Made by a program: the position numbers and the translations under genes. Under the pieces are notes generated by a model. The model made no database searches. It worked only from the letters and a program-made list of their open reading frames with translations, and was not told where the DNA came from. A DNA stretch of 54,143 nt from Thermoplasmata archaeon (lineage in GTDB: Archaea > Thermoplasmatota > Thermoplasmata > Lutacidiplasmatales > UBA184), in assembly GCA_022749995.1 (NCBI GenBank), contig JAKIWO010000004.1:1-54143 (forward strand). The letters run 5' to 3'. Shown in pieces: positions 31,274 to 49,695 of this stretch (position 1 is its first letter; the number at the start of each line of letters is the position of its first letter).

Positions 31274-32365
31274 CTATCGATGTAGTAGCTTCTGGCGCAC
31301 CCCGCGGCCGGCCGCCAGCAGCTTGGGCACGACGACCGGGAAGAGCGCCAGCACGAGGAGAGCCCAGAACCAATAGTTGACGTGGGTCAGCACGTCCAGG
31401 GTCGAGCCGCCGCTGCAGTCCGGGTTCCGGTGCAGGCCGGCGGTGCAGACCACGGCCTTCGGCCCCACCAGCAGGAAGGGGAGCAGCCAGAGCACGCTCA
31501 CGCCCACGGTGACGGCGAAGTTTCGGATGTCCCGGCGCCAGAGGTAGTAGCCGGCGACGAACAGGTTTGCAAACTGCTTGGTCCCGAGCGCGACCCATTC
31601 TGCGATCTTCCTCGGTGGACCCGTCAAGGTGACGAACGCGAGGACGAGCAGCAGCACTCCCGGAAAGTCGTTGTAGCCGTTGGCCGCAAGCAGTGCCGGG
31701 TACGGGCTGCCAATCACGAGGAGCGCCCACGGGCGATTGCGCACGAGGTAGAGGGCGGCCACCCAGCACAGGCTGGTCGTCACCTGGTAGGGGATCAGTG
31801 GGATTGCGAGGAACGGGAGTAGCGGGAGGTAAACGAAGTAGGACCGGGAGGTGTACGAGGCGCAGGCGACCAGCGCTCCCTGGGTGGGCCCAGAGCACTG
31901 TGTGTAGTTGAAGACGAGCTGAGTAGTGTACGGGTTCTTCCCCGCGAGGATGAGCCCCGCGTACCGCGTCGTGGTGAACGGCTCATCGGTGGACCCGCCG
32001 AAGATGCCCGTTGTCAGCACGAGGACCACGAGAGCTCCGGAGAAGAGCAGCAACCAGCGCAGCGATGCCGGCTGCGTCCCGCCGAACCGGCGGGCGAGGT
32101 ACGGGTAGGCGATCGCCCCAACGCCGACGAGGAGCGATATTTCGACGAGGTGCCCGTTGCCGGTCAACCAGTCGAGGGGGGCGGACAGGACCATGGGCAG
32201 CAGGCCCACGCCGAACAGCGCGAGCAGGAGCGGCCCCCAGCGGGCGGGGCGGGAGATGTTGGGCGCCGTGGTGCGGGCGACGGGCGCTCGCGCATAAGCG
32301 CGCCACCGCCCGCCGGGTAAGGCCGCCGTGGATTGTTGGCCACGTCGCGGTGCCGCCGCCACCAA
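31274..32365 (-). CDS. multi-pass membrane protein, GT87/DUF2029-like glycosyltransferase
   Basis: 363 residues with about ten membrane helices. The first outside loop after helix 3 contains STDEPFTTTRYAGLILAGKNPYTTQLV. A loop of this kind, with an acidic residue and a G-x-NPY motif, is typical of GT-C polyprenyl-phosphate-mannose-dependent transferases. A small Cys-containing loop (CTAGLHRNPDCSGG) near the end may form a disulfide outside. It would add a sugar to a lipid-linked glycan on the outer face (inference). The GTG start at 32365 is uncertain. It is divergent from pntAA. Confidence 0.68.
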   Translation of the reverse strand: MVAAAPRRGQQSTAALPGGRWRAYARAPVARTTAPNISRPARWGPLLLALFGVGLLPMVLSAPLDWLTGNGHLVEISLLVGVGAIAYPYLARRFGGTQPASLRWLLLFSGALVVLVLTTGIFGGSTDEPFTTTRYAGLILAGKNPYTTQLVFNYTQCSGPTQGALVACASYTSRSYFVYLPLLPFLAIPLIPYQVTTSLCWVAALYLVRNRPWALLVIGSPYPALLAANGYNDFPGVLLLVLAFVTLTGPPRKIAEWVALGTKQFANLFVAGYYLWRRDIRNFAVTVGVSVLWLLPFLLVGPKAVVCTAGLHRNPDCSGGSTLDVLTHVNYWFWALLVLALFPVVVPKLLAAGRGVRQKLLHR

Positions 32366-35312: not shown

Positions 35313-36881
35313 ATGCGGCGGACCCCGTTCTATCGAAGCGTGCTCTCGGCCGAGCCGCCGCGTAGCCCAAGTGAGCAGGAAACCGATGGATTCCTCGGCT
35401 ATCGCCGTTGGGTGCGACTAGCTCGGCGGTTCGCCCTCGAGCCTCAGTACCGGCGGCTCCGCCGCATCGTCCTCGTCGGCCTGCTGGTGCGGCTCCTCCT
35501 GGCCCCCGTCAGCTCCTGGGATTTCGACACCCCGGGCTTCGTGCTTTCCGGCATCTCGACCGTGTACACGGGCAACCCGTACGCATCGTCCCTCTGGGCC
35601 AATCCTCCGCTTGCTCCGTATCTGGCAGCCCCGCTGCTCGCCATCCCGACGCTCCTCTGGGGCCCCCAGAGCCTTGTGGCCGTTGCCTCCGGGGTCGCAC
35701 CGGTCACCGTGGTCACTGGCGTCAACGCAACCTTCCTGCCGAGCCCCATCGCGTTGCTGGCTTGGAAGCTGCCTCTCCTCCTGGCCGACCTGGGGGTTGC
35801 GCTCTTGCTCTATCTCCTGCCGCCGCGACTCGGGCTGCAGGTCCCGTTCTCGCGCGAGGGCCTCGCCGCGGCCTGGTTCCTGAACCCGCTGGTGATCTGG
35901 TCCTCGGCCGTTCATGGGGAAGTGGACTCGCTCGCCATCCTCCTCGTGCTGCTCTCACTCTACGCGGTCATCACCGAGCACTGGTACTCGGCAGGACTGC
36001 TCTTCGGGCTCGGGGTGTTCACGAAGGCCTACCCGCTCGTGCTGCTCCCGCTTCTCGGGGTGGCGGTCGCGCTGTGGCCCAGCGCGTCGCCTCCCCCACC
36101 GCGACAGTGGCTACGTCGGGCGGGCCGCCTCGCCGCCGGAGTGGCAGTCGGCGTGGTGGCGTTCCTCTCCTTCCTCCCCCAGACTTTCGGCTTGATTGTT
36201 TCCAAGGCGACCAATCCGAACTTCGGCGGCATGAGCCTGCTCATTCTCTACAATCGCATCGCGCCCGGGGGCGCCACGGGGCACTGGACGGTACCGACCT
36301 ACATCCCGACCGGCTTGGCGGTCCTCTCGGTGTTTCGGATCATGGCCGTACTGGCCGTGCTGCTCGGCGCCGGATTCTTCGCCTGGCGCTTGTGGCGCCG
36401 GCCCAGCGCGTCACGACAAGAACGGTTCCATTGGCTCTTCCTGGCCGCCCTCTGGGCGATCGTGGGCGTCCTCCTCTCCGACTCGGTTCCGCAACCCGAG
36501 AACGTTGTCGCGCTCCTGCCGCTCATGCTACTCACCCTTCCGGCCCCGGCCCGGTGGCGGAGGCTCGCTCCGTACGTTCTCCTCTCGGGAGCGGGGCTGC
36601 TGATGTATTGGGCGTTCCTTACGCCGCTGGCCATGCTTTACCCTGGGGCCGCGCTCGCCGGGCCCGCGGGGGTCGCCTGGGTGAACGGCGTCGTCCTCGC
36701 CTACGTCCATTCTCCCCTGCTCCACGGGGTCCTGATGACGTGCGCCGGGGTCGTCGGGGGGGCGATGCTGCTGCTCGTGTGGGCGCATTCCGGCTGGCTA
36801 CTCTTGCCCGAGGAGCTGCGCCCACGTCGGGGGGAGGTGAGCGGTGATCGGACGGCTCCGGCGCCCGCGACTCCGGTCTGA
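35313..36881 (+). CDS. multi-pass GT-C-type glycosyltransferase-like membrane protein
   Basis: 522 residues with 12 or so membrane helices. The first outside loop (APVSSWDFDTPGFVLSGISTVYTGNPYASSLW) has the acidic DFD and G-NPY pattern of GT87/PIG-M-like enzymes. WFLNPLVIWSSAVHGEVDSLAILLVLLSLY and LGVFTKAYPLVLLPLL also match such mannosyltransferases. It should transfer a sugar from a polyprenyl-phosphate donor on the outer face. It begins 78 nt after pntB and overlaps the next gene by 38 nt, so the two are coupled. Confidence 0.75.
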   Translation: MRRTPFYRSVLSAEPPRSPSEQETDGFLGYRRWVRLARRFALEPQYRRLRRIVLVGLLVRLLLAPVSSWDFDTPGFVLSGISTVYTGNPYASSLWANPPLAPYLAAPLLAIPTLLWGPQSLVAVASGVAPVTVVTGVNATFLPSPIALLAWKLPLLLADLGVALLLYLLPPRLGLQVPFSREGLAAAWFLNPLVIWSSAVHGEVDSLAILLVLLSLYAVITEHWYSAGLLFGLGVFTKAYPLVLLPLLGVAVALWPSASPPPPRQWLRRAGRLAAGVAVGVVAFLSFLPQTFGLIVSKATNPNFGGMSLLILYNRIAPGGATGHWTVPTYIPTGLAVLSVFRIMAVLAVLLGAGFFAWRLWRRPSASRQERFHWLFLAALWAIVGVLLSDSVPQPENVVALLPLMLLTLPAPARWRRLAPYVLLSGAGLLMYWAFLTPLAMLYPGAALAGPAGVAWVNGVVLAYVHSPLLHGVLMTCAGVVGGAMLLLVWAHSGWLLLPEELRPRRGEVSGDRTAPAPATPV

Positions 36882-38004
36882 TCTCGCGCGGCTCGCTACC
36901 GTCGGCTCGCTCTTCGTCGTGGCGGTGCTGGTGCTTCAGAGCAGCGAAGGACCGGGTGCGCTCGCCTCCGCCCGCGTCGCCAGCTGGGCAGGGCTTCCCG
37001 GCGGCACGCTGCAGGTCACTGTCGAGGTGAGTTCGCATCGGCCCTGGCCACTGCCCATCCGCGCAGCGCTGCTGCCGGTGGTGTTCGCACCGACCGCCAC
37101 CTCAGTCTACGTGCTCGAGGACCCGAATTACCCGGCCCTGTTCGGTACTACACCGGAAGTCGCCGCCTTGGTGAGCTTCCTCGGTACCGAGTTCCAACGC
37201 TTCGGTTCCTCCACGACGATCGCGACGCTCGACGCGGCCCAGCTACCGGACTTTCTCTCGGGCAACCGCAGCGCCACCCTGATCGTGGCCAACTACGGTT
37301 GCGTCCCATCGGCTGTCCTCTCCAGCCAGAACGACTCGCTCGGGTCCTGGATCCGCGCAGGCGGTCGACTGGTCTGGGCGGGTGGCCCCCTGGGCTACTT
37401 CGAGGAGCCGGCCGCATCCAGCGCGGGTGGCCCGCTGCCCGGAGGGATGGGGTGGGCCGGCCAAGTACGCCTGCTCGGCTTTCCGCTCGCGGACCCGCTC
37501 CCTGTGGGCAGTGAGGGACCGCAATCGATCAACAGTAGCCCGATGCTGGGAGTCAGTCCGTCCCCCCTCGCCGAAGGACTCGGGTTGGCGTACAACGGCA
37601 CACCGTTCGGAGCGAACGTGACCGAACTGACGGCACACGGGGGTCTCTCGCTGGGGTTCGAGTCGGCTCCCCTCTCCTCAGGGGCTGCGGCGCGAACTTC
37701 GATCGCCTATCTCCCCGTGGGCAACGGTTCCTTGGTGTACTTCGGGGGTGCGGTCAATGACCCGGCCAGTCAGTACGTGCCCGAGGGCGGGGTGCGGTTG
37801 GCGCAGGACGTGGCTGTCCTGCTCGCCTTCCCTTTCACCCCGACGCCGGGTCCCGTCGACGTTCGGAATTTCGACCTCGGCCCGTTCGGCACCCAGCAGG
37901 TACTCTTGCAAGCGACTCCCCCGGTCCGCTCGGAGGGAGTGCTGGTCCAGAGCAACGTGGCGGGCGCCGTACTGTTCGCTTGGGCACAGGCTGTACCCTA
38001 CTAG
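36844..38004 (+). CDS. exported protein with a GATase1/DUF4350-like domain, unknown role
   Basis: 386 residues from a GTG inside the preceding gene. An N-terminal membrane helix (LATVGSLFVVAVLVLQSS) is followed by an outside part. The segment TSVYVLEDPNYPALFGTTPEVAALVSFLGTEFQRFG ... LIVANYGCVPSAVLS ... WIRAGGRLVWAGGPLGYFEE resembles the amidotransferase-like folds of DUF4350-type proteins, without a catalytic Cys-His pair. It probably works with the GT-C protein upstream at the membrane (inference from overlap). N-glycosylation sequons are frequent. Confidence 0.62.
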   Translation: MIGRLRRPRLRSDLARLATVGSLFVVAVLVLQSSEGPGALASARVASWAGLPGGTLQVTVEVSSHRPWPLPIRAALLPVVFAPTATSVYVLEDPNYPALFGTTPEVAALVSFLGTEFQRFGSSTTIATLDAAQLPDFLSGNRSATLIVANYGCVPSAVLSSQNDSLGSWIRAGGRLVWAGGPLGYFEEPAASSAGGPLPGGMGWAGQVRLLGFPLADPLPVGSEGPQSINSSPMLGVSPSPLAEGLGLAYNGTPFGANVTELTAHGGLSLGFESAPLSSGAAARTSIAYLPVGNGSLVYFGGAVNDPASQYVPEGGVRLAQDVAVLLAFPFTPTPGPVDVRNFDLGPFGTQQVLLQATPPVRSEGVLVQSNVAGAVLFAWAQAVPY

Positions 38005-38052: not shown

Positions 38053-40836
38053 CTACTGGCGGCGGCGTGGCTCCGGTGCGCGCGTGTCATCGATTGCCGG
38101 GCCGACCACCATTCGCAACGCTGGGAACGCTGCGGCGATCAAAAGGAACGGAGCCACCGTTGCACAGAAGACTCCTACGAGGTAGTACCGATCCGGAGCG
38201 TACTGCGAGATCGTGAGCTCGTCGAACCGGAGGTTCAGGCCGTAGGGGCCGGCGCTGTACTTGCCGAAGCCGAGCTGGCGGGTCGGGGCGGGGGAGCTTC
38301 GGCTCAGGTTGTCGACGGTGAACGTCGTGCCGCTCGATCCGCTGCGGAGTGAAAAACGAACCTCCGGCGTCGGGACGGAGACGTTGGTGAAGTTCGCGCC
38401 TTGCTGGAGCGCGAAGGCGAAGGAGGGGACGATGGGGGGCATGGAGGGGGAGACGTAGAGGGCGGTGGCGTAGCCGGTGAAGGAGTTGCTGGCGGAGCCG
38501 GGGTAGGGAGGGGAGCCGACGAGAAGGTCGGTGGAGCCGTTGAGGAAGAGGGGGAGCGGGAGGGAGGCGAGAAGGCCGTCGATGTCGAAGGAGAGGCCGG
38601 TGGGGGTGGGGTGGAGGATAGCGAAGCTCCACTGGTCGAGGGGGAGGAGGCCGCCAAGGGAGAGGAAGCGGGTGGTGTTGTGGGTGAGGAGGCCCGAGTA
38701 GACGAGCAACGTCTGGCTGCCATCGCTCGAAAGGAGGAGGGAGGACTCAGGCCCGTTCAGGTAGAGTGGGACGGTGTCCGTAAGTCCCCGGCTGTGCGGC
38801 TCGAAGGAGAGGAAATAGTATCGGTTGAGCCAGGACCCTGGAGGGAACTGGTAACTCGCGTACGCCTCGGAGTTGTAGTACCCAACGGCCGCCGCCTGAT
38901 CGGGCGGCACCGAGCTGTTGCTGCTCGCCCGTACTCCCGGGTCGGAACCGGGCCGGACGAGGCTCCCGGCGGCAAAGGAGGGAGCGCTGGCGTTCTGGAA
39001 CCAGAGGCTGAACGGCGTGCCGTTGACCGCGAGCGTCGAGCGCGGAGCCGTACCATCGAGTTGAATCGTGCCGGCGATCGCGGTTCCGGTACCGTCGTAC
39101 CATCGGCTGAAGGCCAACGGCGGTGCCTTGGCCGAGATCTGCACGGTATTGCCGCTGAGCGTGTAGGTCTCCGACGGGATCGGGCGCACTACGTTGCCCT
39201 CGGGCGGCACGTAGAGTGGGAGCATCGCGTAGACGGGGACCTCTCCGCTCCCGTGGTAGTTGAGCAAGTCAGGCGCGCTGGCGTTGAACAGGAGCGAACC
39301 GGCCACGACGAGCACCAACACCACCCCCACCATCGCTAGCGCTCGCCGGCGCGGACCCGAGGGGCGAACGGCCAGCGCGCTTCGAGGGAGACTGGGCGGG
39401 AAGAACGGCCGAGCGGGGTCGGTGCGGCCGTAGAGCGCCAGGATGAGGAACGAGAGTGCGATGCCCGTCGCCGTCAACACGTTGAACAGTTCGAGGAAGA
39501 GCTGCACCTGGGCCGGCGTGGTCAGCACGCGGGGATTCGAATGGAACAGGTCATACCCCCAGAGGAACGGGCCCACCCCATCGGGCTGTCCATTGGTCAG
39601 GCTGAAGCTGATCAATAGCAGGCCGAGGGCGGGATACGCCAGCAACCCGGCGAGCCGGGTGAATCTCGCGGCGGACGGGCGCCAGCCGAGGAAGCTAAGG
39701 AGGGCGAACGGGAAGACGAAGAGGTAGTTGTCCGGCGTCGGCACGGAACTGGTGAAGACGAAGAGCGTCGCCACCACGAACAGCGTCGACGGTTCGGTAA
39801 ATCGGAGCTGGCGCAGTACGAGCGGGAGGGCGAAGGCAATCCCCCCGAGCAGGACCAGATAACAGTTCGCGGAGAGCGGAGCGAAGTACTGGAAGCCGAA
39901 GTACGCGGCCCGATTGAGGCCGCTCGTCGACCCCACCAATGCCCCGGTGTACTTCCCCAGGTTCCCGTCGAAGGCGTACACGCTGGCGGCGAACAGCGCC
40001 GCGAAGATTGCCGAGAAAGCACCCAGCTCGACCAGGAGCTCCCTTCTCGAACGGGAGTAATACAGGAGGGTCGGAACGAGCACCAGCGCCAACCAGTAGA
40101 AGAACACCGAGACGGCGATCAGGGCGACCGCCGCCACGATACGGGTCGATTCTGGAAGTGCAGGGCTGCCAAAGCGCAGCAGCACGTAGCCGACGGCCAC
40201 GAAGGCGATGGGGACGATGTCGTACTCCGTCCAAACGTAGCTCACGTAGAGGAGAAGCGGGTTCGCCAGCACGAACACGCCCACCCCGGTGGCGAACGAC
40301 CCGCCCCGCGGGCGAGCTACTCGGTAGAGTCCGTACGCCAGCCACGCGGTAAGTACGAAGAAGATGACCTTGAGCGCTGTGTACGCCGCGTAGAGCTGGT
40401 AGCCGGAGCCGACGTACGCGAGGTGCGCCGGCACGAACAGGGCATAGATGAACGGCCCGGCGACCCAGCCGTTGTACGTTGCAGGCGGCGCGGCGCTAGT
40501 GAAGTGGGAGCCGACCGATAGTGCGAGCGGGATATTGTTGGGGTCGTAGAACGGCAGGAAGAGGAAGAATAGATTGACGAGCAACGCGACAAGAAGAGCG
40601 GGTCGTGCGAGAAGCTGCAGCGCGGTCGTCGAGATCCAGCGGGCTCGGCTCCGCAGCCACCCTTTGAGTCTCCGATCGATCAGAGCCGATGCTGTCAGTG
40701 GAATGGCGATGCCCTCTATGCTTCCGGCGCCCGTCGAGGCGGCGGATCCATCGATTCGCGCACTCCCCTGGGCGGCAAGCCCCACCGTGGGGCGCCGACG
40801 CGACTGGGTATCTCCGAGAGGCACTGCTGGGCTCAT
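38053..40836 (-). CDS. giant membrane protein, paralogue 1: GT-C-like membrane half plus outside lectin-like half
   Basis: About 927 residues from the ATG at 40836 (ATG 40872 is possible, but a TATA-like CTAACTTATG overlaps it). Residues ~80-510 hold about a dozen helices with outside segments FLPFYDPNNIPLALSVGSHF and YVWTEYDIVPIAFVAVGYVLLR. A further helix (MVGVVLVLVVAGSLLF) leads to a ~370-residue outside domain with many N-x-S/T sites and a jelly-roll-like pattern (LNGPESSLLLSSDGSQTLLVYSGLLTHN), and the protein ends in ISQYAPDRYYLVGV plus a last helix. It is homologous along its length to 41966..44653. No family name is certain. Confidence 0.75.
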   Translation of the reverse strand: MSPAVPLGDTQSRRRPTVGLAAQGSARIDGSAASTGAGSIEGIAIPLTASALIDRRLKGWLRSRARWISTTALQLLARPALLVALLVNLFFLFLPFYDPNNIPLALSVGSHFTSAAPPATYNGWVAGPFIYALFVPAHLAYVGSGYQLYAAYTALKVIFFVLTAWLAYGLYRVARPRGGSFATGVGVFVLANPLLLYVSYVWTEYDIVPIAFVAVGYVLLRFGSPALPESTRIVAAVALIAVSVFFYWLALVLVPTLLYYSRSRRELLVELGAFSAIFAALFAASVYAFDGNLGKYTGALVGSTSGLNRAAYFGFQYFAPLSANCYLVLLGGIAFALPLVLRQLRFTEPSTLFVVATLFVFTSSVPTPDNYLFVFPFALLSFLGWRPSAARFTRLAGLLAYPALGLLLISFSLTNGQPDGVGPFLWGYDLFHSNPRVLTTPAQVQLFLELFNVLTATGIALSFLILALYGRTDPARPFFPPSLPRSALAVRPSGPRRRALAMVGVVLVLVVAGSLLFNASAPDLLNYHGSGEVPVYAMLPLYVPPEGNVVRPIPSETYTLSGNTVQISAKAPPLAFSRWYDGTGTAIAGTIQLDGTAPRSTLAVNGTPFSLWFQNASAPSFAAGSLVRPGSDPGVRASSNSSVPPDQAAAVGYYNSEAYASYQFPPGSWLNRYYFLSFEPHSRGLTDTVPLYLNGPESSLLLSSDGSQTLLVYSGLLTHNTTRFLSLGGLLPLDQWSFAILHPTPTGLSFDIDGLLASLPLPLFLNGSTDLLVGSPPYPGSASNSFTGYATALYVSPSMPPIVPSFAFALQQGANFTNVSVPTPEVRFSLRSGSSGTTFTVDNLSRSSPAPTRQLGFGKYSAGPYGLNLRFDELTISQYAPDRYYLVGVFCATVAPFLLIAAAFPALRMVVGPAIDDTRAPEPRRRQ

Positions 40837-40991
40837 CGGTGAGCACTCGAGGAACGGGCCGAGGCCCGCCATAAGTTAGTGCCCAGCTACTGCCGATTCG
40901 CGGGGCTTGGTGCAAAGGCGAGAGTGTCAACGTCTAGGATCCATCGCCGCGGCCTGAGAGGCGAGTGTCCGCACTAGCGCGCCCTGGTGCT

Positions 40992-41969
40992 TCAGCGCGC
41001 GGAGGGACCGGGCGGGGTTCGGCCCGACCCTGCAAGGGCCGCCACGATCGCCCGAACCCGTTGGCCCCTTTCAGGGAGCAGCGCGACGGCACCCGCTGTC
41101 CCGATCCACATGGAACCCAGGATGGCGAATGCCGTTCGACGATCATGTCGCCAGCAGCGCCGGGCGCAGACCGTCGTGTCGCGGACCAGGTGGTAGGTAC
41201 GGTTCGGCGAATACCCGCGGACGAGCTTCGACCGGCCCGCCCAGGAAATGCGTGTCGGCACCCCTTGCTGGTGCCAAAGTTCCGCCCTCACCGCCTCGAA
41301 GAGATGGAAGCCCCTGGCCCGTAGTCGAATGCCCAGATCGTAGTCGACCGCGTCCAGGAAGAGCTCCGCCGCGAACCCACCGGCCTCCTTCGCCGCTGGA
41401 ACGCTAAGGAGGAGTCCCGAATTGATCAGGGTGAGCCGTTCCCGGACGAATTCGTCGCGGTACAGGCGGCGCGCTCGGTAGGCCCCTTCGTAGTGCGACT
41501 CAGCCAGTCGTCGGAGCCCGGTCTTCGGGTTCAGTTCGAGCGTTACCCGCTCTCGATTCCGGGCATTGACCGCCCCCACAGAAAACTGCGGCCGGAGCCG
41601 ACCAAATTGTCGCCGCATCTCCTCCAACGCGCCACCCGCGAGCTGCGAGTCCTGGTCGAGCAGGAGGACGGACCCGAACTGCTGCGCCGCCGCTTCGTCT
41701 AGGCCGGCCTGGTAGGCCGCGCTCAGCCCCTCGTTGCGCCCCGGCGACTTGCGAAGCAGACGGTCCCAAGGCAGCTCTGGCGCGCGCTCGCGAAGCGTGG
41801 CCACCAGGCGATTGGTCGGTCCGGGGTCTTCGCTGTTGTCCCAGAGCAGCACCCCGTCCGCCTGGACGAGCGCCGCGCTCAGCCCCTCGGCCAGCTCCGG
41901 ACCCGGTCGGTACGCGACCAGCACGGCGAGCACGCGGCCGGGTTCGGCCGGAAGAGAGTCGGCGGTCAC
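40992..41969 (-). CDS. family 2 glycosyltransferase (rhamnosyltransferase-like)
   Basis: 325 residues from a GTG at 41969 that overlaps the upstream gene's stop (GTGA). GT-A signatures: VLAVLVAYRPGPELAEGLSAAL, VLLWDNSEDPG, NEGLSAAYQAGLDEAA, the DxD-type LLLDQDSQLAGGALEEM, and later FLDAVDYDLGIRLRARGFHLFEAVRAELWHQQG. This pattern is close to RfbF/RhaN-type rhamnosyltransferases. It uses a nucleotide sugar on the cytoplasmic side. The acceptor is unknown. Confidence 0.85.
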   Translation of the reverse strand: MTADSLPAEPGRVLAVLVAYRPGPELAEGLSAALVQADGVLLWDNSEDPGPTNRLVATLRERAPELPWDRLLRKSPGRNEGLSAAYQAGLDEAAAQQFGSVLLLDQDSQLAGGALEEMRRQFGRLRPQFSVGAVNARNRERVTLELNPKTGLRRLAESHYEGAYRARRLYRDEFVRERLTLINSGLLLSVPAAKEAGGFAAELFLDAVDYDLGIRLRARGFHLFEAVRAELWHQQGVPTRISWAGRSKLVRGYSPNRTYHLVRDTTVCARRCWRHDRRTAFAILGSMWIGTAGAVALLPERGQRVRAIVAALAGSGRTPPGPSAR

Positions 41970-44653
41970 GGGGACCGACTGCGAGAAGAGGCATTCCACC
42001 CGCGGGTCGTCGGCCGGCCGGATGCGGGCGGGTCGAACACCCGGCGTAGCATAGGCAGCGTCAGCGCGAGCAGGAGGAACGGACCCGCGGTCGCCCAAAG
42101 GACGCCGACGAGGTAGTAGCGGTCGGGTGCGTACTGCGAAACGGCAAATCGGCTGAGGGTGAACTCGACTGAGTACGGGACCGACCGGAACTTGCCGAAC
42201 GCCACCTCCGTGGTCGGCACGATGGAGCTCATGGTCAGGTTGTCCACCGTGTAATGTGTGCCGGTGCTGGTGCTGTCGATGACGAAACTGACCTGAGGCG
42301 AAGCTAGGGTCACGTTGGTGAAGGAGGAGCCCTGCTGGAGATCGAACGCAAACGATTCTACGATGGGAGGCGAGGCGAGAGTGACGTACAAGGCCGTGGT
42401 GTTTACGGCGGAGGACCGATTGGCGGAACCGTGCGCCGGTGCGGACCCGAGCAGGAGGTCGGTAGACCCATTAACGAACAGCGGGAGCGGGACGGAGAAG
42501 AACTGACCGTCGAGGTCAAGGGAGAGGCCGGTAGACGACGGGTAGAGAACGGCGAAATTGGATCGGTCGGGAGAAAGGAGACCGCCGAGGGCGACGGACC
42601 GGGTAGAATTGTGGGTGAGAAGTCCGCAGTAGAGGAGGAGGGTCTGGTTCCCATCGCTCGTCAGCGCCGCGAAGGCCTGCGGACTGTCCAGAAAGAAGAG
42701 GACCGTCTCGTTCGGTGGGGGGTCTCTGGGGAAGAAGTAGAACGTGTAGTAGCGATTCAGCCACGACGAGGCAGCGAAGTGGTACCCCGTGTACGCCAGC
42801 GTTTCATTGAATCCGTGCGGGGCACTCCGATCCGCCGCGGGCGTCGCGTTGCCGTCGGCCGCCACCGCGGGTCCCGACGTCGGAGTCTGCGCGGTCGAGC
42901 CCGAGAGATTGGGCGAGCTCCCGTTCTCGAGCCAGAGCCGGAATGGTAGCCCATCGATCGCGAGCGCGGCGCGCGGAATAATCCCGGAAAAGCCCACGCT
43001 ACCTCCGATCGTCACGGCGTCACCTCGGAACCAGCGGTTGAAGGAGAGGGCGGGGGCGGAGCCGGCTACGTGTACCGTGTTACCGTCGAGCGCGTAGGTC
43101 GCGTTCGGGATGGGCCGGACGACGTTGCCGTTGGGCGGGAGGAAGCTCGGGAGGAGCTCGTCGACCGGCGCGGGCCCCACCCCCCGATAATCGACCAGGT
43201 TCGGCACCGCGGCATTGAAGACGAGGGAGAGCACGGCGATGATCGCGAGTATGCCGACTCCTCGCACCGCCGGACGCCTCCAGCGTCGGAGATCGCCCCC
43301 GGTGGGTAGGGCGACAGGAGAGTCCTCCGGTCCCGTCGGTGGAAGGAGCGGCCGGGCCGGCTCGGTGCGGCTGCGCCGGGCCAAGAGGAAGAAGGAGCCG
43401 CTTATCGCGGCGACTACGAGGAGATTGAACACCCAGTAGAAAGCGGTCAGCTCGGCATGAGTGGTGAGAGGATGCGGGCTCGCGTGGAAGAGGTCGTATC
43501 CGAACAGGAACAGCCCGACCCCGTCCGGTTGCACGTTGCTGATGACGACGTTGATCAGCAGGAGTCCGACGACCGGATAGCCGAGCAGCCCCCAGAGCCA
43601 GCGGAATCGGATCTGGGCCGGCTTCCACAGGAGGAAGCTGAGCACGGCGAACGGGAAGACGAACACGTAGTTGTCCGGCATCGGGATGGCGCTGGTGAAG
43701 ACGAACAGGGAGACGACGATGAACAGGGCTGCCGGTTCGGTGAACCGGAGCCACCGGAGGACGAGCGGGAGCACCAGCCCAATGACGGCCGCGACCCCGA
43801 GGTAGACGGGGAGCGGCAGCGGCAGGAAGAACTGAAGGCCGAAGGAGTCCGATCGATTCAGTGTGATGTTGGAGCCCACAAGCGAGCCGAGGAATGCGGG
43901 GAAGCTGCCCGCGAACGCGTAGACCGTGAAGGCGAGCATCGCACCGAACACCCCGATGAACGCCACCAACTCCCGGAGCAGCTCTCGCCGGGTCGGGGCG
44001 TAGTAGAGAAGGGTCGGGACGAGGACTAGAGCGAACCAGTAGAAGTACACCGAGACGGCAATCAAGGCAACCGCCGAGAGCACCCGGGTCCGGTCCGAAA
44101 CGGAGGGACCCGAGTGCCGCAGGAGCAGGTATCCGACCGAGACGAACGCGACGGGCAATATGTCGAACTCGGTCCAGATGTAGCTCACATAGAGCCACAG
44201 CGGGTTGGCGAGCACGAAGGCGGCGGTCGCGACCGCCAGCGACTCGCTCCGCGGGCGGACGTATCGGTACAGGGCGTAGCTCATCCACGCGGTGCACCCG
44301 AAGAGGATCGCCTTCAGCGAGGTGTACGCCGCATTTAGCTGGAAGCCGGAGGCGACGTAGGCGAGATGCATCGGGATGAACAGTGCGTAGATGAACGGCC
44401 CGGCGACCCAGGTGTTGTAGCTCGACGGCGGAAACGCGCTCGTCAGGTGGGCGCCCGTGGACAGAGCCGTCGGAATGTTGTTCGCGTCGTAGAACGGGAG
44501 CAACAGGAACACGAGGTTCACGAGGGCCGCCACGAGAAGGACCGGTCGGGCGAGGAGCCAGCGGACTGGTCGGACCAGGCGGGCGGCCGGCACGAGCCCG
44601 TGGCCTGCCTCGGTGCGCTCCAGCACCGCGGGCTCGGCCGGGGAGTCGATCAT
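41966..44653 (-). CDS. giant membrane protein, paralogue 2: GT-C-like membrane half plus outside lectin-like half
   Basis: 895 residues from the ATG at 44653, which overlaps the preceding GT2 stop (ATGA); the track's extra N-terminus is shadow. The plan is the same as in paralogue 1: FLLLPFYDANNIPTALSTGAHL, YIWTEFDILPVAFVSVGYLLLR, one helix at ~490, then an outside part rich in N-glycosylation sites (FFLDSPQAFAALTSDGNQTL), closing with VSQYAPDRYYLVGV and a final helix. Translational coupling on both sides to GT2 genes ties it to glycan assembly. Confidence 0.78.
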   Translation of the reverse strand: MIDSPAEPAVLERTEAGHGLVPAARLVRPVRWLLARPVLLVAALVNLVFLLLPFYDANNIPTALSTGAHLTSAFPPSSYNTWVAGPFIYALFIPMHLAYVASGFQLNAAYTSLKAILFGCTAWMSYALYRYVRPRSESLAVATAAFVLANPLWLYVSYIWTEFDILPVAFVSVGYLLLRHSGPSVSDRTRVLSAVALIAVSVYFYWFALVLVPTLLYYAPTRRELLRELVAFIGVFGAMLAFTVYAFAGSFPAFLGSLVGSNITLNRSDSFGLQFFLPLPLPVYLGVAAVIGLVLPLVLRWLRFTEPAALFIVVSLFVFTSAIPMPDNYVFVFPFAVLSFLLWKPAQIRFRWLWGLLGYPVVGLLLINVVISNVQPDGVGLFLFGYDLFHASPHPLTTHAELTAFYWVFNLLVVAAISGSFFLLARRSRTEPARPLLPPTGPEDSPVALPTGGDLRRWRRPAVRGVGILAIIAVLSLVFNAAVPNLVDYRGVGPAPVDELLPSFLPPNGNVVRPIPNATYALDGNTVHVAGSAPALSFNRWFRGDAVTIGGSVGFSGIIPRAALAIDGLPFRLWLENGSSPNLSGSTAQTPTSGPAVAADGNATPAADRSAPHGFNETLAYTGYHFAASSWLNRYYTFYFFPRDPPPNETVLFFLDSPQAFAALTSDGNQTLLLYCGLLTHNSTRSVALGGLLSPDRSNFAVLYPSSTGLSLDLDGQFFSVPLPLFVNGSTDLLLGSAPAHGSANRSSAVNTTALYVTLASPPIVESFAFDLQQGSSFTNVTLASPQVSFVIDSTSTGTHYTVDNLTMSSIVPTTEVAFGKFRSVPYSVEFTLSRFAVSQYAPDRYYLVGVLWATAGPFLLLALTLPMLRRVFDPPASGRPTTRGWNASSRSRSP

Positions 44654-45663
44654 GCGATCCCAAGGTGCTGGGCGGTCCTCCGAGCATGTTCGGCGTACCA
44701 CCGGCGCTCCAGGCCCGGCGCTAGCGTGCGCAAGGCGAGCCCGGCCACCGTGCGGCTCACGCTGATGCCCGCATCTCCGGCGATCCCACGGCGGAGCAGC
44801 CCGGGGAGCCGCCGGGCAGGGAAGGGTGCCTCCTGCGGGTCGGCGGCCAAGGCGAACAGCGCCTGTCGCTCCAGGAGCTCTCCCTGGGCGAACGGCGCGA
44901 TCGGGCTGCCGTCGGCCATCTTGACGATCCGTTCGAACCCGTCGACGATGGAGCCCCACTTCCGCCGCTCGCGCTCGAAGAACTCGGTCGAGCCCGTGCT
45001 CTCCCAGGAGGCGCTCCAGTGCAATCGGTAGTACGTGAGAGGAGCCGGTTCGTTGCGCAGCGCAAGCGGCGCAACCAGCGCGGAGTAGAACAACAGGTTG
45101 TCGCAGGTCAGGTTCGTCTCGGCCAGATGTGGCAAGGCGGAGGCGATCGCCTCCCGCCGCAGGGCGATAGAACTCAGATTGAAGTAGGCGCTCGCCCGGA
45201 GCAGCCACCGGACGGCCCTCCGGGACCGGTCCTTGGGCGCAACGTCGATCTGCCGTCGGCTCTCGGAGCGGAAGCTCCCGGCGAGGGGAAGCCCTTGCCG
45301 GTCAACGAGTTGTGTGGCGTTGTGGAGATAGCCCAGCTGCGGATCCTCGAACGCCCGGCGCACACAGGCGAGCCGGTCCGGTGCGTACAGGTCATCGTCC
45401 TCCAAGAAGGTGAGGACCTCGCCGCGCGCGGCTGCGATGGCCTCCGCCAACTTGCCGCCCAGCGCGTCGCGGTCGCTGCGAAGCAGCTGGACCCCCTGCG
45501 AGCGTAGGAACCGGTCGGTCTCCTCCTCTTCGAAGTTCTTGACGACGATTAGCTCGTACTCGCTCCGGGAAAGGCTCTGTCCAAGCACCGACGCCACCGC
45601 CGAGCGCAGGAACTCCGTCCGATGGTGGGCTGGTAGAACGACGGTAAGCGCCGGGGCGGACAT
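44650..45663 (-). CDS. family 2 glycosyltransferase
   Basis: 337 residues. GT-A start LTVVLPAHHRTEFLRSAVASVLGQSLSRSEYELIVV, then AIAAARGEVLTFLEDDDLYAPDRLACVRRAF with the metal-binding acidic run, and the acceptor-side SIALRREAIASALPHLAETNLTCDNLLFY. The C-terminus is helical, with no transmembrane segment. It is first in the minus-strand run GT2, giant paralogue 2, GT2, giant paralogue 1. A TATA-like CTTAATGG lies ~36 nt before the ATG. Confidence 0.87.
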   Translation of the reverse strand: MSAPALTVVLPAHHRTEFLRSAVASVLGQSLSRSEYELIVVKNFEEEETDRFLRSQGVQLLRSDRDALGGKLAEAIAAARGEVLTFLEDDDLYAPDRLACVRRAFEDPQLGYLHNATQLVDRQGLPLAGSFRSESRRQIDVAPKDRSRRAVRWLLRASAYFNLSSIALRREAIASALPHLAETNLTCDNLLFYSALVAPLALRNEPAPLTYYRLHWSASWESTGSTEFFERERRKWGSIVDGFERIVKMADGSPIAPFAQGELLERQALFALAADPQEAPFPARRLPGLLRRGIAGDAGISVSRTVAGLALRTLAPGLERRWYAEHARRTAQHLGIA

Positions 45664-45981
45664 CGCTGCGACGCCGTGGACGGGGACGGGCTCCCATTAA
45701 GGTACTCTTCCTCGACGGGGGGCCACGCCGGAGAACTCAGCTTGGCCGATGGATGCTCCGCCGGTCCGGACAGCCCCGAGTCCGCGAGCGAGAGCGCCTC
45801 GGAGCGGAACTCCGGGTGGAGCGGTGAAACTAAGGTCGCTCGCTGCACTAGATGGCTCGCGCGGCGGTTGACGACCGCTCGGAGGAGGAAGCGGCGTACA
45901 GTGGAGCCTACGGGTGGGTCCTCTACCCGGGTCTTGCTAGGGTCATCGACCTGGGTGGGCGCGGCGTTCTCCAGCCTCGCC
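45664..45981. other. 318-nt divergent region between GT2 and methyltransferase genes
   Basis: The minus-strand TATA-like CTTAATGG near 45700 serves the GT2 gene. The rest is open in the methyltransferase frame (track start 45676), but its translation is Ser/Arg/Thr-rich and does not look conserved. A GTG at 45955 may be the real methyltransferase start. No RNA, repeat or second promoter is convincing. Confidence 0.4.
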
Positions 45982-46743
45982 ATGCGCCTTCGGCTGCGCC
46001 TCGACGGGATCTTCCACCGGCCCCCTCGCGACCGGCCGGTATCCACCAATGTGGAGGGGGAGCTCTTCCAGCTCCTGGGCGATTCCCCCGAAGTACGCCG
46101 GGCCTGGTCCGAGTCGCACGTGATAGGCCTGGAGCAGCGGATCTCCGCGCGGCTTCGCGGCACGCTCCGATTTTCACGGGCTCCGGCGCCGGTCGCGGAA
46201 CCTTCCGGTCCGTGGCTTGAGATGCTCCGACTGATCTACACCGTGGTGCGCGTGCGCCGTCCCGAGCGAGTGATCGAGACGGGCGTGGGCCCGGTCGGTT
46301 CCTCGAGCGCATTCATCCTGGAGGCGATGCGCGCCAACGGCCGGGGCCACCTCTGGTCGCTCGACGCCGGGCGGTACACCGCGCTCTATGGGATCGAACC
46401 CGGCCTCGGGATTCCCGAGGAGCTACGGTCCCGGCACAGTCTCATTATCGGGGAGTCGCGCAAGTGCCTCCCCCAGCTGCTCGAACGGTGCGGTCCGGTG
46501 GAGATGTTCCTGCACGACTCCGACCACTCGCACTCCAACATGCGGTTCGAGTTCGACTCGGTATGGCCCCGGCTGCCGCCCGGGGGCATCCTCCTCTGCG
46601 ACGACGCCAACAACGACTCCCTCGACCGGTTCTCCCGCTCGGTGAACCTCGAGCCGGCGTTCCTTCTCTATGGGTCAACCCCGTTCGGGGTGCTCCAGAA
46701 ACCCGCCACGGCGGGTTCCCTCACGGTCCCGCTAGGCTCCTGA
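45982..46743 (+). CDS. class I SAM-dependent methyltransferase (cephalosporin-hydroxylase-like/Methyltransf_24)
   Basis: About 253 residues from the ATG at 45982 (GTG 45955 possible). The SAM-binding core is VRRPERVIETGVGPVGSSSAFILEAMRANGRGHLWSLDAG, followed by HSLIIGESRKCLPQLLERCGPVEMFLHDSDHSHSNMRFEFDSVWPRLPPGGILLCDD. The motif order and the H-D-S-D-H-S-H stretch fit sugar or small-molecule O-methyltransferases of the Methyltransf_24/CmcI group. Placement among glycosyltransferases suggests it methylates a surface glycan (inference). Confidence 0.8.
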   Translation: MRLRLRLDGIFHRPPRDRPVSTNVEGELFQLLGDSPEVRRAWSESHVIGLEQRISARLRGTLRFSRAPAPVAEPSGPWLEMLRLIYTVVRVRRPERVIETGVGPVGSSSAFILEAMRANGRGHLWSLDAGRYTALYGIEPGLGIPEELRSRHSLIIGESRKCLPQLLERCGPVEMFLHDSDHSHSNMRFEFDSVWPRLPPGGILLCDDANNDSLDRFSRSVNLEPAFLLYGSTPFGVLQKPATAGSLTVPLGS

Positions 46744-46791: not shown

Positions 46792-47766
46792 CTACGGCGC
46801 CTGGGCCGTCGACTCGGTGAGGTGGGGGGCCGCGGGAGCCATCGGGTGCCAGTGCAGTTCCTTCGTCCCGTCCACCGGCTCCCAATCGAAGGATCCGCCC
46901 ACGGAGACCAGCGCACCGCTCGCCGCGAGGGTGCGCACGACCGTCTCGCCCGAGAGGAATAGGATCACGCTCGAGCGGGGGACCTCCCCGTTGGCGAGGG
47001 TTCGACCCAACGCCCGGATGACTACCGCGGCCCGCGCGGTGGAGGGGGACGCCGCGTAGCCCCGACGGGCGTGGCTGGCGAGCGAACGGACGTACCGCAC
47101 CTGCTGGCGGATCCATTCCCGGAGCGTGGAGGGAGGCGCATTGCGGACCAGCCCGTCCGGCACGTACTCGGCAGTGAGGCCGGACGCCTCGACGAGCTCC
47201 TGGAGCATCACATCCTCGAGACCCGCATCCCGCGGAAGCGGGACATCGACGCGCCGGAACAGCTGGAAAACTGTCGTCTTGGGCGCGAGGGAGGAGACCT
47301 GGTGGTGAATCTCAACGTATGCAGCGTGCAGTTGGTTGACGATCCGGCTACGGCCCGGAACGAATCCCAGGCGTGGGCTCGCGATTCCGACCGCCGGGTT
47401 GCGCAGACACGCGAGGAGCTTTTCCACAGTACCGGGGAGGACCTGGATGTCGGCGTCGGCCCGGAGCAGCAGCGGGGCGCGCGCCAGGGCCATGAGCCGA
47501 GCCAGTGCCTCGAGTAGTCCGTCGCGGCGGCCCACGTCGACCACCCGCATGGTCGGGATCACGCTGGCGAGTTCCCGAGCGATTTCCGGAGTGCGGTCGG
47601 TCGAGCCGGAGACGTCCACCAGGAACTCGGCGCGGACCGGGATCGAGGCGCATTCTGCCCGGAGGAATTCGACCAGCAGACGAAGGTTGCGCTCCTCGTT
47701 GTACGCCGGGATGAGTATGGACAGCTCCGGTCTACTATCCATCTCATTAGTAATGTCCGTTCGCAT
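46792..47766 (-). CDS. family 2 glycosyltransferase
   Basis: About 324 residues from the ATG at 47766 (ATG 47742 also possible; the track start at 47859 is upstream of the TATA-like box). It has the dolichyl-phosphate-glycosyltransferase-like GT-A pattern: LSILIPAYNEERNLRLLVEFLRAE, VDVSGSTDRTPEIARELA, ALARAPLLLRADADIQVLPGTVEKLLACL with its D-x-D. One or two hydrophobic helices near the C-terminus (SSVILFLSGETVVRTLAASGALV) could dock it to the membrane. It is convergent with the methyltransferase gene. Confidence 0.82.
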   Translation of the reverse strand: MRTDITNEMDSRPELSILIPAYNEERNLRLLVEFLRAECASIPVRAEFLVDVSGSTDRTPEIARELASVIPTMRVVDVGRRDGLLEALARLMALARAPLLLRADADIQVLPGTVEKLLACLRNPAVGIASPRLGFVPGRSRIVNQLHAAYVEIHHQVSSLAPKTTVFQLFRRVDVPLPRDAGLEDVMLQELVEASGLTAEYVPDGLVRNAPPSTLREWIRQQVRYVRSLASHARRGYAASPSTARAAVVIRALGRTLANGEVPRSSVILFLSGETVVRTLAASGALVSVGGSFDWEPVDGTKELHWHPMAPAAPHLTESTAQAP

Positions 47767-47959: not shown

Positions 47960-48358
47960 CTAGCAGCAGCCGCCGGAGCCGCAGCCCCCGCCGCCTTCTC
48001 GCGGGGTCTCCGCCAGAAGGGGGGCCACGATCTTGAAACCGGACTCGTCCAGGTTCTGGACGTAGTCGATGGTCGCTCCGTCCAGCGCCCCGAGCACGCT
48101 CGAGTCCACGACGACGTTGAATCCGTCCACGGGGATCACTTCGTCCCCGCTGCGCGCACGGTCGAACGCCATCCCGAAGCTCGTGCCGCCCCCGCCCCCT
48201 CCGCTGCCGCACCCGCAGCTGCCGCCGCCCGACCCGCAGCCCCCTCCCGAGGAGGGGGACTGCAAGTAGACGCGGACCGCGGTGCCGGGCTTCTGGGAAC
48301 GAATGAGCTGCTCGACCTGGGTTCGTGCTTCCTGTGTGACTTCCAACTTTACCGTCAT
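47960..48358 (-). CDS. HesB/IscA-type Fe-S protein with Gly/Cys-rich insert and tail
   Basis: 132 residues. The A-type carrier fold is recognisable (LEVTQEARTQVEQLIRSQKPGTAVRVYLQ ... SFGMAFDRARSGDEVIPVDGFNVVVDSSVLGALDGATIDYVQ ... GFKI). In place of the usual single Cys in GGCSG there is a 20-residue loop with Cys at 41, 48 and 50, and the C-terminal CxC is replaced by GGGGCGSGGCC. The six cysteines could bind a cluster or another metal. An AGGAGG-type ribosome site lies ~12 nt before the ATG. Confidence 0.8.
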   Translation of the reverse strand: MTVKLEVTQEARTQVEQLIRSQKPGTAVRVYLQSPSSGGGCGSGGGSCGCGSGGGGGGTSFGMAFDRARSGDEVIPVDGFNVVVDSSVLGALDGATIDYVQNLDESGFKIVAPLLAETPREGGGGCGSGGCC

Positions 48359-48434
48359 GCCTGGGGCCCTCCTAGCGTGCCCCGACCGAGGACCGGCCCG
48401 CCTGTATTTAATGCCTGAGCGAGGCGTGCCGCGA

Positions 48435-48764
48435 CTAGGCCGAGAAGGACTTCCCGCAGGAGCAGGTCTCCTTGGCGTTGGGGTTGGCGATCTTGAAGCC
48501 GGAGTGGTCGAGCCCCATCAGGTAGTCCACCTGCACGCCCTCGAGGAGGGGAGCGCTCGCGTGGTCCACGACGACCGTGACCCCGCCGCCGTGGAAGGCG
48601 ACCTCGTCGCCGGTCTCCTGCTTGTCGAAGCTCATGCCGTAACTCAGGCCGGAGCAACCGCCCCCTTGGACGAACAGACGGAGCGCGTTGCCCGTCTTGC
48701 CCTGGCGCTCCATGATCTTGAGCACCTGCTCGACGGCGGGGGGCGTGACCTCGACGTGCACCAT
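48435..48764 (-). CDS. HesB/IscA/ErpA-type iron-sulfur cluster carrier
   Basis: 109 residues from the ATG at 48764 (MVHVEVTPPAVEQVLKIMERQG); the track's M at 48782 lacks a good promoter distance. It has all three canonical cysteines: GGGCSGLSYGMSFD and the C-terminal CSCGKSFSA (CxC). It holds and passes [2Fe-2S]/[4Fe-4S] clusters to target proteins. Two different A-type carriers in a row suggest divided roles. It is divergent from the amidotransferase gene. Confidence 0.93.
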   Translation of the reverse strand: MVHVEVTPPAVEQVLKIMERQGKTGNALRLFVQGGGCSGLSYGMSFDKQETGDEVAFHGGGVTVVVDHASAPLLEGVQVDYLMGLDHSGFKIANPNAKETCSCGKSFSA

Positions 48765-48832
48765 GGGGGTTCCTCGAAGCAAGTACGGTCCCCTCGGCGG
48801 TTAACGGTTGCGTGAAGCCGGCGACACCCGCT

Positions 48833-48840
48833 TTTTTATC
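48833..48840 (+). promoter_or_regulatory. TATA-like box of the class II amidotransferase gene
   Basis: TTTTTATC, centred 28 nt before the ATG at 48865. It supports removal of the initiator Met to free the catalytic Cys2. Confidence 0.65.
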
Positions 48841-48864
48841 CTCGAGCCCACCTCGGAACAACGG

Positions 48865-49695
48865 ATGTGTCGGCTGTTTGGGCTCCTCGGTAGCCGAGGC
48901 AGCTCCGCCACCCCTTGGCTGACCGATACCCACGAGTCGCTGCTCGCCCAGTCGAACGCACGCCCGGACCAGCTCCAGTCGGATGGCTGGGGGCTGGCCT
49001 GGTACGAGAAGACCCGCACCCCGCACGTGGAAAAGGGGGTCCGGGGCGCCTTCGATCCCGAGGAGAGCGATCGGTTCCGCTCGGCGGCCCAGCGGGCACG
49101 GGGACCCGTGGTCGTCGGGCATCTGCGCAAGGCGAGCAACCCGATGCACCTGCCGCACTCCATGCTCATTGCGATGGAGAACGTCCAGCCGTTCAGCCAC
49201 GGCAGCTACCTGTTCGCCCACAACGGCGAGATCAGCCTGCCCCGGGAGACCCGACCCCGGCTCGGCAAGTTCGAATCGAACCTCAAAGGGGTCAACGACA
49301 GCGAGGTGCTCTTCTGGCTGTTCGCCAAGCATGTCGAGGCGGCGGGCGACCCGCTTGCCGCCTACGGTCGGGCGCGCACCGAGCTCCAGGAGGTCTGGGA
49401 GGTGGCCGAGCCCCGGGTCGACCGCCCGTACTCTGGCCTCAACTTCCTGTTCTCCCGCGGCCCCAACGAGCTCTGGGCGTTCTGCAGCTCTCTGGGTGAC
49501 CATGGCTCGAGCCTGACCGACCCGAACCGACCGTACTACGAGATGGCCTACCGCACCGACACCCGCGAGCTCATCGTCGGGAGCGAGCCGTTCGACCGGA
49601 GCCTGACCGACTGGCGCACCCTCTCCAACGGGCAGTACCTAGTCGGCCGCGCCGACCACGGGCTCGTGGGCATCGAGACCGGCCCGCTGCCCTAG
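48865..49695 (+). CDS. class II glutamine amidotransferase (YafJ-like)
   Basis: 276 residues starting Met-Cys-Arg-Leu-Phe-Gly. Cys2 is the Ntn nucleophile once Met is removed, so the ATG at 48865, not the track's 48808, must be the start. The other motifs are QSDGWGLAWYE, VVVGHLRKASN (Arg/Asn of the oxyanion and glutamine site), HNGEISLP (H-N-G) and LKGVNDSEVLFWLF (N-D-S-E). It hydrolyses glutamine to ammonia. No synthase domain is fused, and the partner is unknown. Confidence 0.9.
   Translation: MCRLFGLLGSRGSSATPWLTDTHESLLAQSNARPDQLQSDGWGLAWYEKTRTPHVEKGVRGAFDPEESDRFRSAAQRARGPVVVGHLRKASNPMHLPHSMLIAMENVQPFSHGSYLFAHNGEISLPRETRPRLGKFESNLKGVNDSEVLFWLFAKHVEAAGDPLAAYGRARTELQEVWEVAEPRVDRPYSGLNFLFSRGPNELWAFCSSLGDHGSSLTDPNRPYYEMAYRTDTRELIVGSEPFDRSLTDWRTLSNGQYLVGRADHGLVGIETGPLP

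Follow-up and report, generated by a model that had tools for sequence, protein, structure and literature searches.

What is the function of two very large, similar membrane proteins whose genes alternate with glycosyltransferase genes in an archaeon of the Thermoplasmata? The window (the whole stretch of DNA analyzed, 54,143 nt) contains four minus-strand ORFs in the order GT2a, giant 2, GT2b, and giant 1, as the first-pass annotation had described. GT2a (44650..45663, 337 aa) is predicted to be a soluble family-2 glycosyltransferase (GT2) with an EDDD metal motif (Pfam Glycos_transf_2, E 1.6e-14), and GT2b (40992..41969, 325 aa, GTG start) a soluble, rhamnosyltransferase/GlfT1-like GT2 with a DQD motif. 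Giant 2 (41966..44653) has 895 aa. Giant 1 (38053..40872) has 939 aa if it starts at 40872 or 927 aa if it starts at 40836; the start codon is uncertain, and relatives lack an equivalent of the first ~50 residues. The two 4-nt overlaps reported before are present, one between the GT2a stop and the giant 2 start (ATGA) and the other between the giant 2 stop and the GT2b start (GTGA). Since GT2b and giant 1 are separated by about 120-155 nt, depending on the start codon chosen, coupling is limited to two of the three joints. The locus also encodes a methyltransferase (Methyltransf_24, 45955..46743, plus strand, Pfam E 1.1e-14) and a further family-2 glycosyltransferase, GT2c (46792..47766, minus strand, Pfam Glycos_transf_2 E 1.5e-15), and both have relatives in the corresponding locus of G003, a genome of the same genus.

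Over 850 residues, the two giants share 54% identity (E 1.6e-289), and both carry QYAPDRYYLVGV just before the final helix. They share a layout of about 12 helices, an all-beta outside domain (367 and 369 aa in the two giants), and a closing helix. In giant 2, hydropathy and the AlphaFold2 model agree on the last of the ~12 helices (residues 455-485), the all-beta region (487-841), and the final helix (847-870). In giant 1, the outside domain covers residues ~517-884 when numbering begins at 40836. N-X-S/T sequons occur 13 times in the outside domain of giant 2 and 9 times in that of giant 1, versus 3.8 and 3.1 in shuffles, while the membrane halves have only 2 and 0, respectively. A sequon excess, mostly two- to three-fold, was also found in the outside domains of relatives. 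Since the excess is confined to the beta domain and recurs in relatives, this domain is placed outside the cell. By hydropathy, 10 of 11 family members have 11-14 helices including the closing one, and the loop before the last helix is 363-383 aa long in nine; in the remaining two members, the count is interrupted by a hydrophobic stretch. The layout proposed earlier for these ~900-residue proteins, with a multi-helix half, a ~370-residue sequon-rich domain, and a QYAPDRYYLVGV-helix end, is thus borne out by alignment, hydropathy, and sequon counts. Divergence between giants 1 and 2 is 0.35, 0.27, and 0.52 at the three codon positions, and both copies are therefore maintained under protein-level constraint.

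When the giants were searched as single sequences, Pfam, NCBIfam, and PDB yielded no meaningful match, and no Pfam or NCBIfam model recognizes the family. A search of PDB sequences with the giant-family profile returned only noise. We compared a profile of 11 giants with one of six smaller GT-C proteins from the same loci using hhalign; one of the six clears the GT87 and PIG-U cut-offs. The membrane half of the giants aligned with these GT87/PIG-U-type proteins over residues 23-347 (probability 98.3%, E 2.3e-14). In this alignment, NP...W.E.D of the giants corresponds to NP...HG..D of the smaller proteins, and P.PDN to PQPEN. In Foldseek, the model of a whole giant matched PIG-U of the human GPI transamidase (E 8e-3, probability 1.00). 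Confidence in the structure models is moderate (pLDDT 55 and 63), and the models were built from shallow alignments of 5 sequences. Y55, D56, K114, N150, P151, and W160 (giant 2 numbering) are invariant in the 11 aligned relatives; all of these also have an acidic residue at position 164 (D164 in giant 2), and DN327-328 is kept in 10. The Y-D pair lies in the first outside loop, after helix 1, and is invariant down to ~20% identity. The giants thus have the hallmark of GT-C proteins, namely 8-13 helices and a conserved acidic position within the first outside loop, and the membrane half (residues ~24-479 of giant 2; 43217..44584, minus strand) is predicted to be a GT-C. A GT-C-like half had been suggested from the start, with the lack of such a topology named as grounds against it; the topology was found, and hhalign, the PIG-U match, the helix count, and the Y-D pair all agree with it. 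Since PIG-U is a non-catalytic subunit, its rank as the top structural GT-C match could mean that the giants are non-catalytic as well and serve as surface receptors or scaffolds for glycan assembly. We regard this as very unlikely, because the first-loop Y-D is invariant in such distant relatives and both copies retain all the conserved polar residues.

One of the smaller GT-C proteins is encoded in the window (35313..36881, plus strand, 522 aa). It is PIG-M/PIG-U/GT87-like, with Pfam scores just under the cut-offs for PIG-U (E 2.7e-5) and PIG-M (E 7.8e-5), and its relative in locus L026 clears the GT87 cut-off. Its gene overlaps by 38 nt that of a one-helix protein (36844..38004, plus strand), and the pair is kept in L026, L027, L028, and L032. 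This arrangement (35313-38004) recalls by analogy the PIG-M/PIG-X pairing. A polytopic membrane protein at 31274-32362, between an ammonium transporter and pntA, might be another GT-C and is conserved in L026 and L027.

The outside domain of giant 2 (residues ~480-846; 42115..43216, minus strand) was predicted in the first-pass annotation to be lectin-like, and structure prediction followed by a fold search pointed the same way. Modeled alone (pLDDT 63), the outside domain matched galectins, laminin-G domains, SHBG, and pentraxin in Foldseek (E 1e-5 to 1e-4, probability 1.00). The best figure for giant 2 was E 1.2e-5 (probability 1.00), and the named matches were galectin-9 and the LG domains of laminin and SHBG. 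One family member also shows a weak Pfam match to Laminin_G_3 (E 0.13). The models thus predict a ConA-like galectin/laminin-G lectin fold, and the fold alone is no proof of sugar binding. Some structural alignments cover ~300-360 columns of tandem galectin or LG pairs, and this length raises the option that the domain consists of two sandwiches, with an rmsd too high for a claim.

Relatives were searched with a protein query and a 5-row alignment. Of the 103 genomes of the same family, 9 carry giant homologs. A sample of 390 genomes across the phylum added one genome outside the family (G354, 37% GC), the sole carrier among 77 genomes of its own family. Its full-length giant aligns with the family profile over 785 columns (E 1.8e-35), and thus the two halves are conserved as one protein. 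In this locus (L046:159-3567), a TIGR01556-like GT2 ORF overlaps the giant ORF by 14 nt. The presence of a giant in this AT-rich genome, alone in its family, suggests horizontal transfer.

If the giants work with glycosyltransferases, the linkage should be found in other loci. A GT2 gene lies within four genes of the giant in all 11 loci, so the homologs are not mostly away from glycosyltransferases, the outcome that had been named as evidence against the link. The stricter expectation that a GT2 is always adjacent holds in part, since the two are direct neighbors in only 6 of the 11. In the other loci, the neighbors are WbsX (three loci, 1-4 nt overlap), rmlD (one), and another GT-C gene (one). 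At L025:7620-11413, L026:7553-11370, and L027:7942-11768, WbsX-family genes overlap distant giant homologs and take the place of the window's GT2. In 7 of 11 loci, a same-strand GT2 or WbsX gene overlaps the giant or lies no more than 29 nt from it. With 15 GT2 domains in the 1.61-Mb genome of the window, at least one GT2 would be expected among eight random neighbors only ~7% of the time, a rough figure that assumes about 1,700 genes and ignores gene clustering and the relatedness of the loci. The proposed coupling to GT2 genes is supported. GT2b scored 71.3 bits (E 7.4e-20) against TIGR01556, for which the curated cut-off is 200.55 bits, and thus appears to be related to this rhamnosyltransferase but not a member. 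A GT2 resembling TIGR01556, below the cut-off, is within 4 genes of the giant in 8 of 11 loci, including that of G354. dTDP-rhamnose genes are near the giant in G010 and G020, and the window's genome carries an RmlC-like gene. The glycan locus of G020 also encodes two large DUF2079 membrane proteins (L031:1418-3730 and L031:13071-15038), another possible GT-C type. Because the smaller GT-C proteins score to PIG-M/PIG-U, the giants might instead modify a membrane glycolipid, like PIG-M, and have no role in surface polysaccharides or glycoproteins. This is quite unlikely, since the large lectin-like domain and the linkage to multi-enzyme glycan loci in all 11 cases suggest a longer acceptor.

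We therefore consider it fairly probable that the giants are outside-facing GT-C transferases that depend on lipid-linked sugars and hold their acceptors with a lectin domain, all within a surface-glycan locus. The fold assignment, topology, conservation, linkage to glycosyltransferases, and lineage-specific duplication form the basis of this explanation, from which we infer catalysis, donor, acceptor, and division of labor. The giants would work as GT-C-fold glycosyltransferases at the external side of the membrane, and the helical half would draw a sugar from a polyprenyl-phosphate carrier, the presumed donor. The conserved outside Asp of FYD, after the first helix, is the probable catalytic residue. 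Between the last two helices, the lectin-like domain of ~367 residues would grip the acceptor glycan. From nucleotide sugars inside the cell, the coupled soluble GT2 enzymes would make the lipid-linked acceptor or perhaps the donor, and all these genes together would form one surface-glycan locus. The duplicated giants 1 and 2 probably target different sugar positions or linkages. The explanation is supported by the GT87/PIG-U/PIG-M profile match, the Foldseek match to PIG-U, and the conserved polar residues. The galectin/laminin-G fold, the outside-only sequon excess, the GT2 linkage, and the dTDP-rhamnose and RmlC-like genes also argue for it, and the surface-glycan role assigned initially is likewise supported. 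Several points count against the explanation. The pLDDT values are moderate, and no GtrA-family flippase (PF04138) was found in the window's genome, which is 87% complete, or in its genus; the family is present in G082, G114, and G354. Moreover, GT2a and GT2b have only 0-1 hydrophobic stretch each, with no helix found in GT2a, and they do not have the membrane helices that are typical of polyprenyl-phosphate sugar synthases.

The first-pass annotation could not assign the giants to a known system. This holds at the sequence level, as they belong to none of the tested families, but not for their plan and operon logic, which match YfhO/CsbB, GT136, and EmbC/AftD. In YfhO, which has 13 helices, an outside loop of 389 aa separates the last two, and its operon partner is a GT2 (PMC5836110). 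An outside carbohydrate-binding domain has been suggested for S. aureus YfhO (PMC8035078). The giants match the length class of YfhO (PF09586), which works with CsbB and GtcA in lipoteichoic-acid glycosylation in Bacillus, Listeria, and Staphylococcus, and they have its layout of ~13 helices, the last preceded by an outside loop of ~390 aa. Both systems have a GT2 in the operon, but the GT2s of the giants lack the pair of C-terminal membrane helices. PF09586 matched none of the 11 members at E<=1 and gave no match in the 101 related genomes searched; the B. subtilis control was positive. Membership of the giants in YfhO was therefore rejected. Since no GtrA flippase was found in the window's genome and the GT2 partners have no two C-terminal helices, the bacterial three-component scheme of transmembrane glycosylation is not present in full.

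Similar plans have been described elsewhere in bacteria. In the O-antigen locus of Citrobacter youngae O1, GT136 ORF12 is a GT-C whose helices are followed by a beta-rich carbohydrate-binding domain, and it modifies the glycan outside; EmbC and AftD have a GT-C core fused to outside carbohydrate-binding modules (PMC11127046). Compared by this description, ORF12 has 11 helices and a pentofuranose donor, and no closing helix after the beta domain is mentioned, whereas the giants have one. The mycobacterial arabinosyltransferases EmbA/B/C and AftD share the plan of a GT-C and an outside module with the giants but differ in lineage and gene neighbors, and the giants have no match to Emb or AftD Pfam domains. 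Emb proteins are also neighboring paralogs. GT-C proteins of the PIG-M/PIG-U/GT87 type align with the membrane half and share the NP...W/HG..D and P.(D/E)N-type motifs, but they lack the ~367-aa lectin-like domain and the closing helix. A literature search for an archaeal GT-C with laminin G found no paper in the library searched. The shared fold class, the outside domain, and neighbors that build lipid-linked glycans would also be compatible with outside-facing ligases or polymerases, which move a whole lipid-linked glycan rather than single sugars, as an oligosaccharyltransferase or an O-antigen ligase does. This is unlikely, because the WWDYG motif of STT3/AglB is absent from all 11 members, no Pfam match to STT3 or ligase families was found, and two similar neighboring copies are better explained by linkage specificity.

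How did the two giants arise? Giants 1 and 2 are sisters in the tree (100/99 support) to the exclusion of the G003 giant. The G003 locus has the order HesB-GT2a-giant-GT2b, followed by the partner/GT-C pair, with an ortholog of GT2a upstream of its only giant. Therefore, the giant alone was duplicated and its copy placed after GT2b, which makes giant 1 a lineage-specific tandem copy. The duplication is also marked at the DNA level, by repeats that are spaced at a constant 3,943 nt. Duplication of a GT2-giant pair as a unit was rejected, since GT2a and GT2b both flank one giant in G003 and have no detectable similarity in BLASTP. Thus, the tandem duplication proposed at first holds for the giants, while the interleaved order does not reflect one duplicated unit. 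Giants 1 and 2 are 49% identical in the outside domain and 58-59% in the membrane half. The greater divergence of the outside domain would fit a change of acceptor, although the same trend is general in all relatives.

In this genus, the interval between HesB/GATase2 and pntAB contains glycan genes of varied content in five genomes. G000 (the window's genome) and G003 have a giant with GT2a and GT2b there, G001 and G005 combine a giant with WbsX, and G002 lacks a giant. Unrelated genes occupy this flank in several other genera. Within the genus, the glycan genes are flanked by two HesB-like genes and one for a class II glutamine amidotransferase (47960-49695), and this set stays linked in many genomes of the family. 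In its gene content across these five genomes, the interval resembles a variable glycan locus. A more tentative and rather doubtful idea is that it is the archaeal equivalent of a serotype locus, with conserved flanks and exchangeable cassettes, in which the lectin-tailed GT-C is the outside transferase, the duplication made a new type of surface glycan, and the two giants possibly form a heteromer.

The general design of the giants is known from bacteria, while the archaeal family is unnamed and has no model; it looks like a rare, locus-specific archaeal version of the bacterial design. GT-C enzymes with carbohydrate-binding tails determine surface chemistry in Gram-positives, mycobacteria, and O-antigen producers. 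The giants offer a delimited set of genes and candidates for catalytic residues to test, and the patchy, locus-bound distribution of the family suggests a diversification of surface glycans in Thermoplasmata similar to that in those bacteria.
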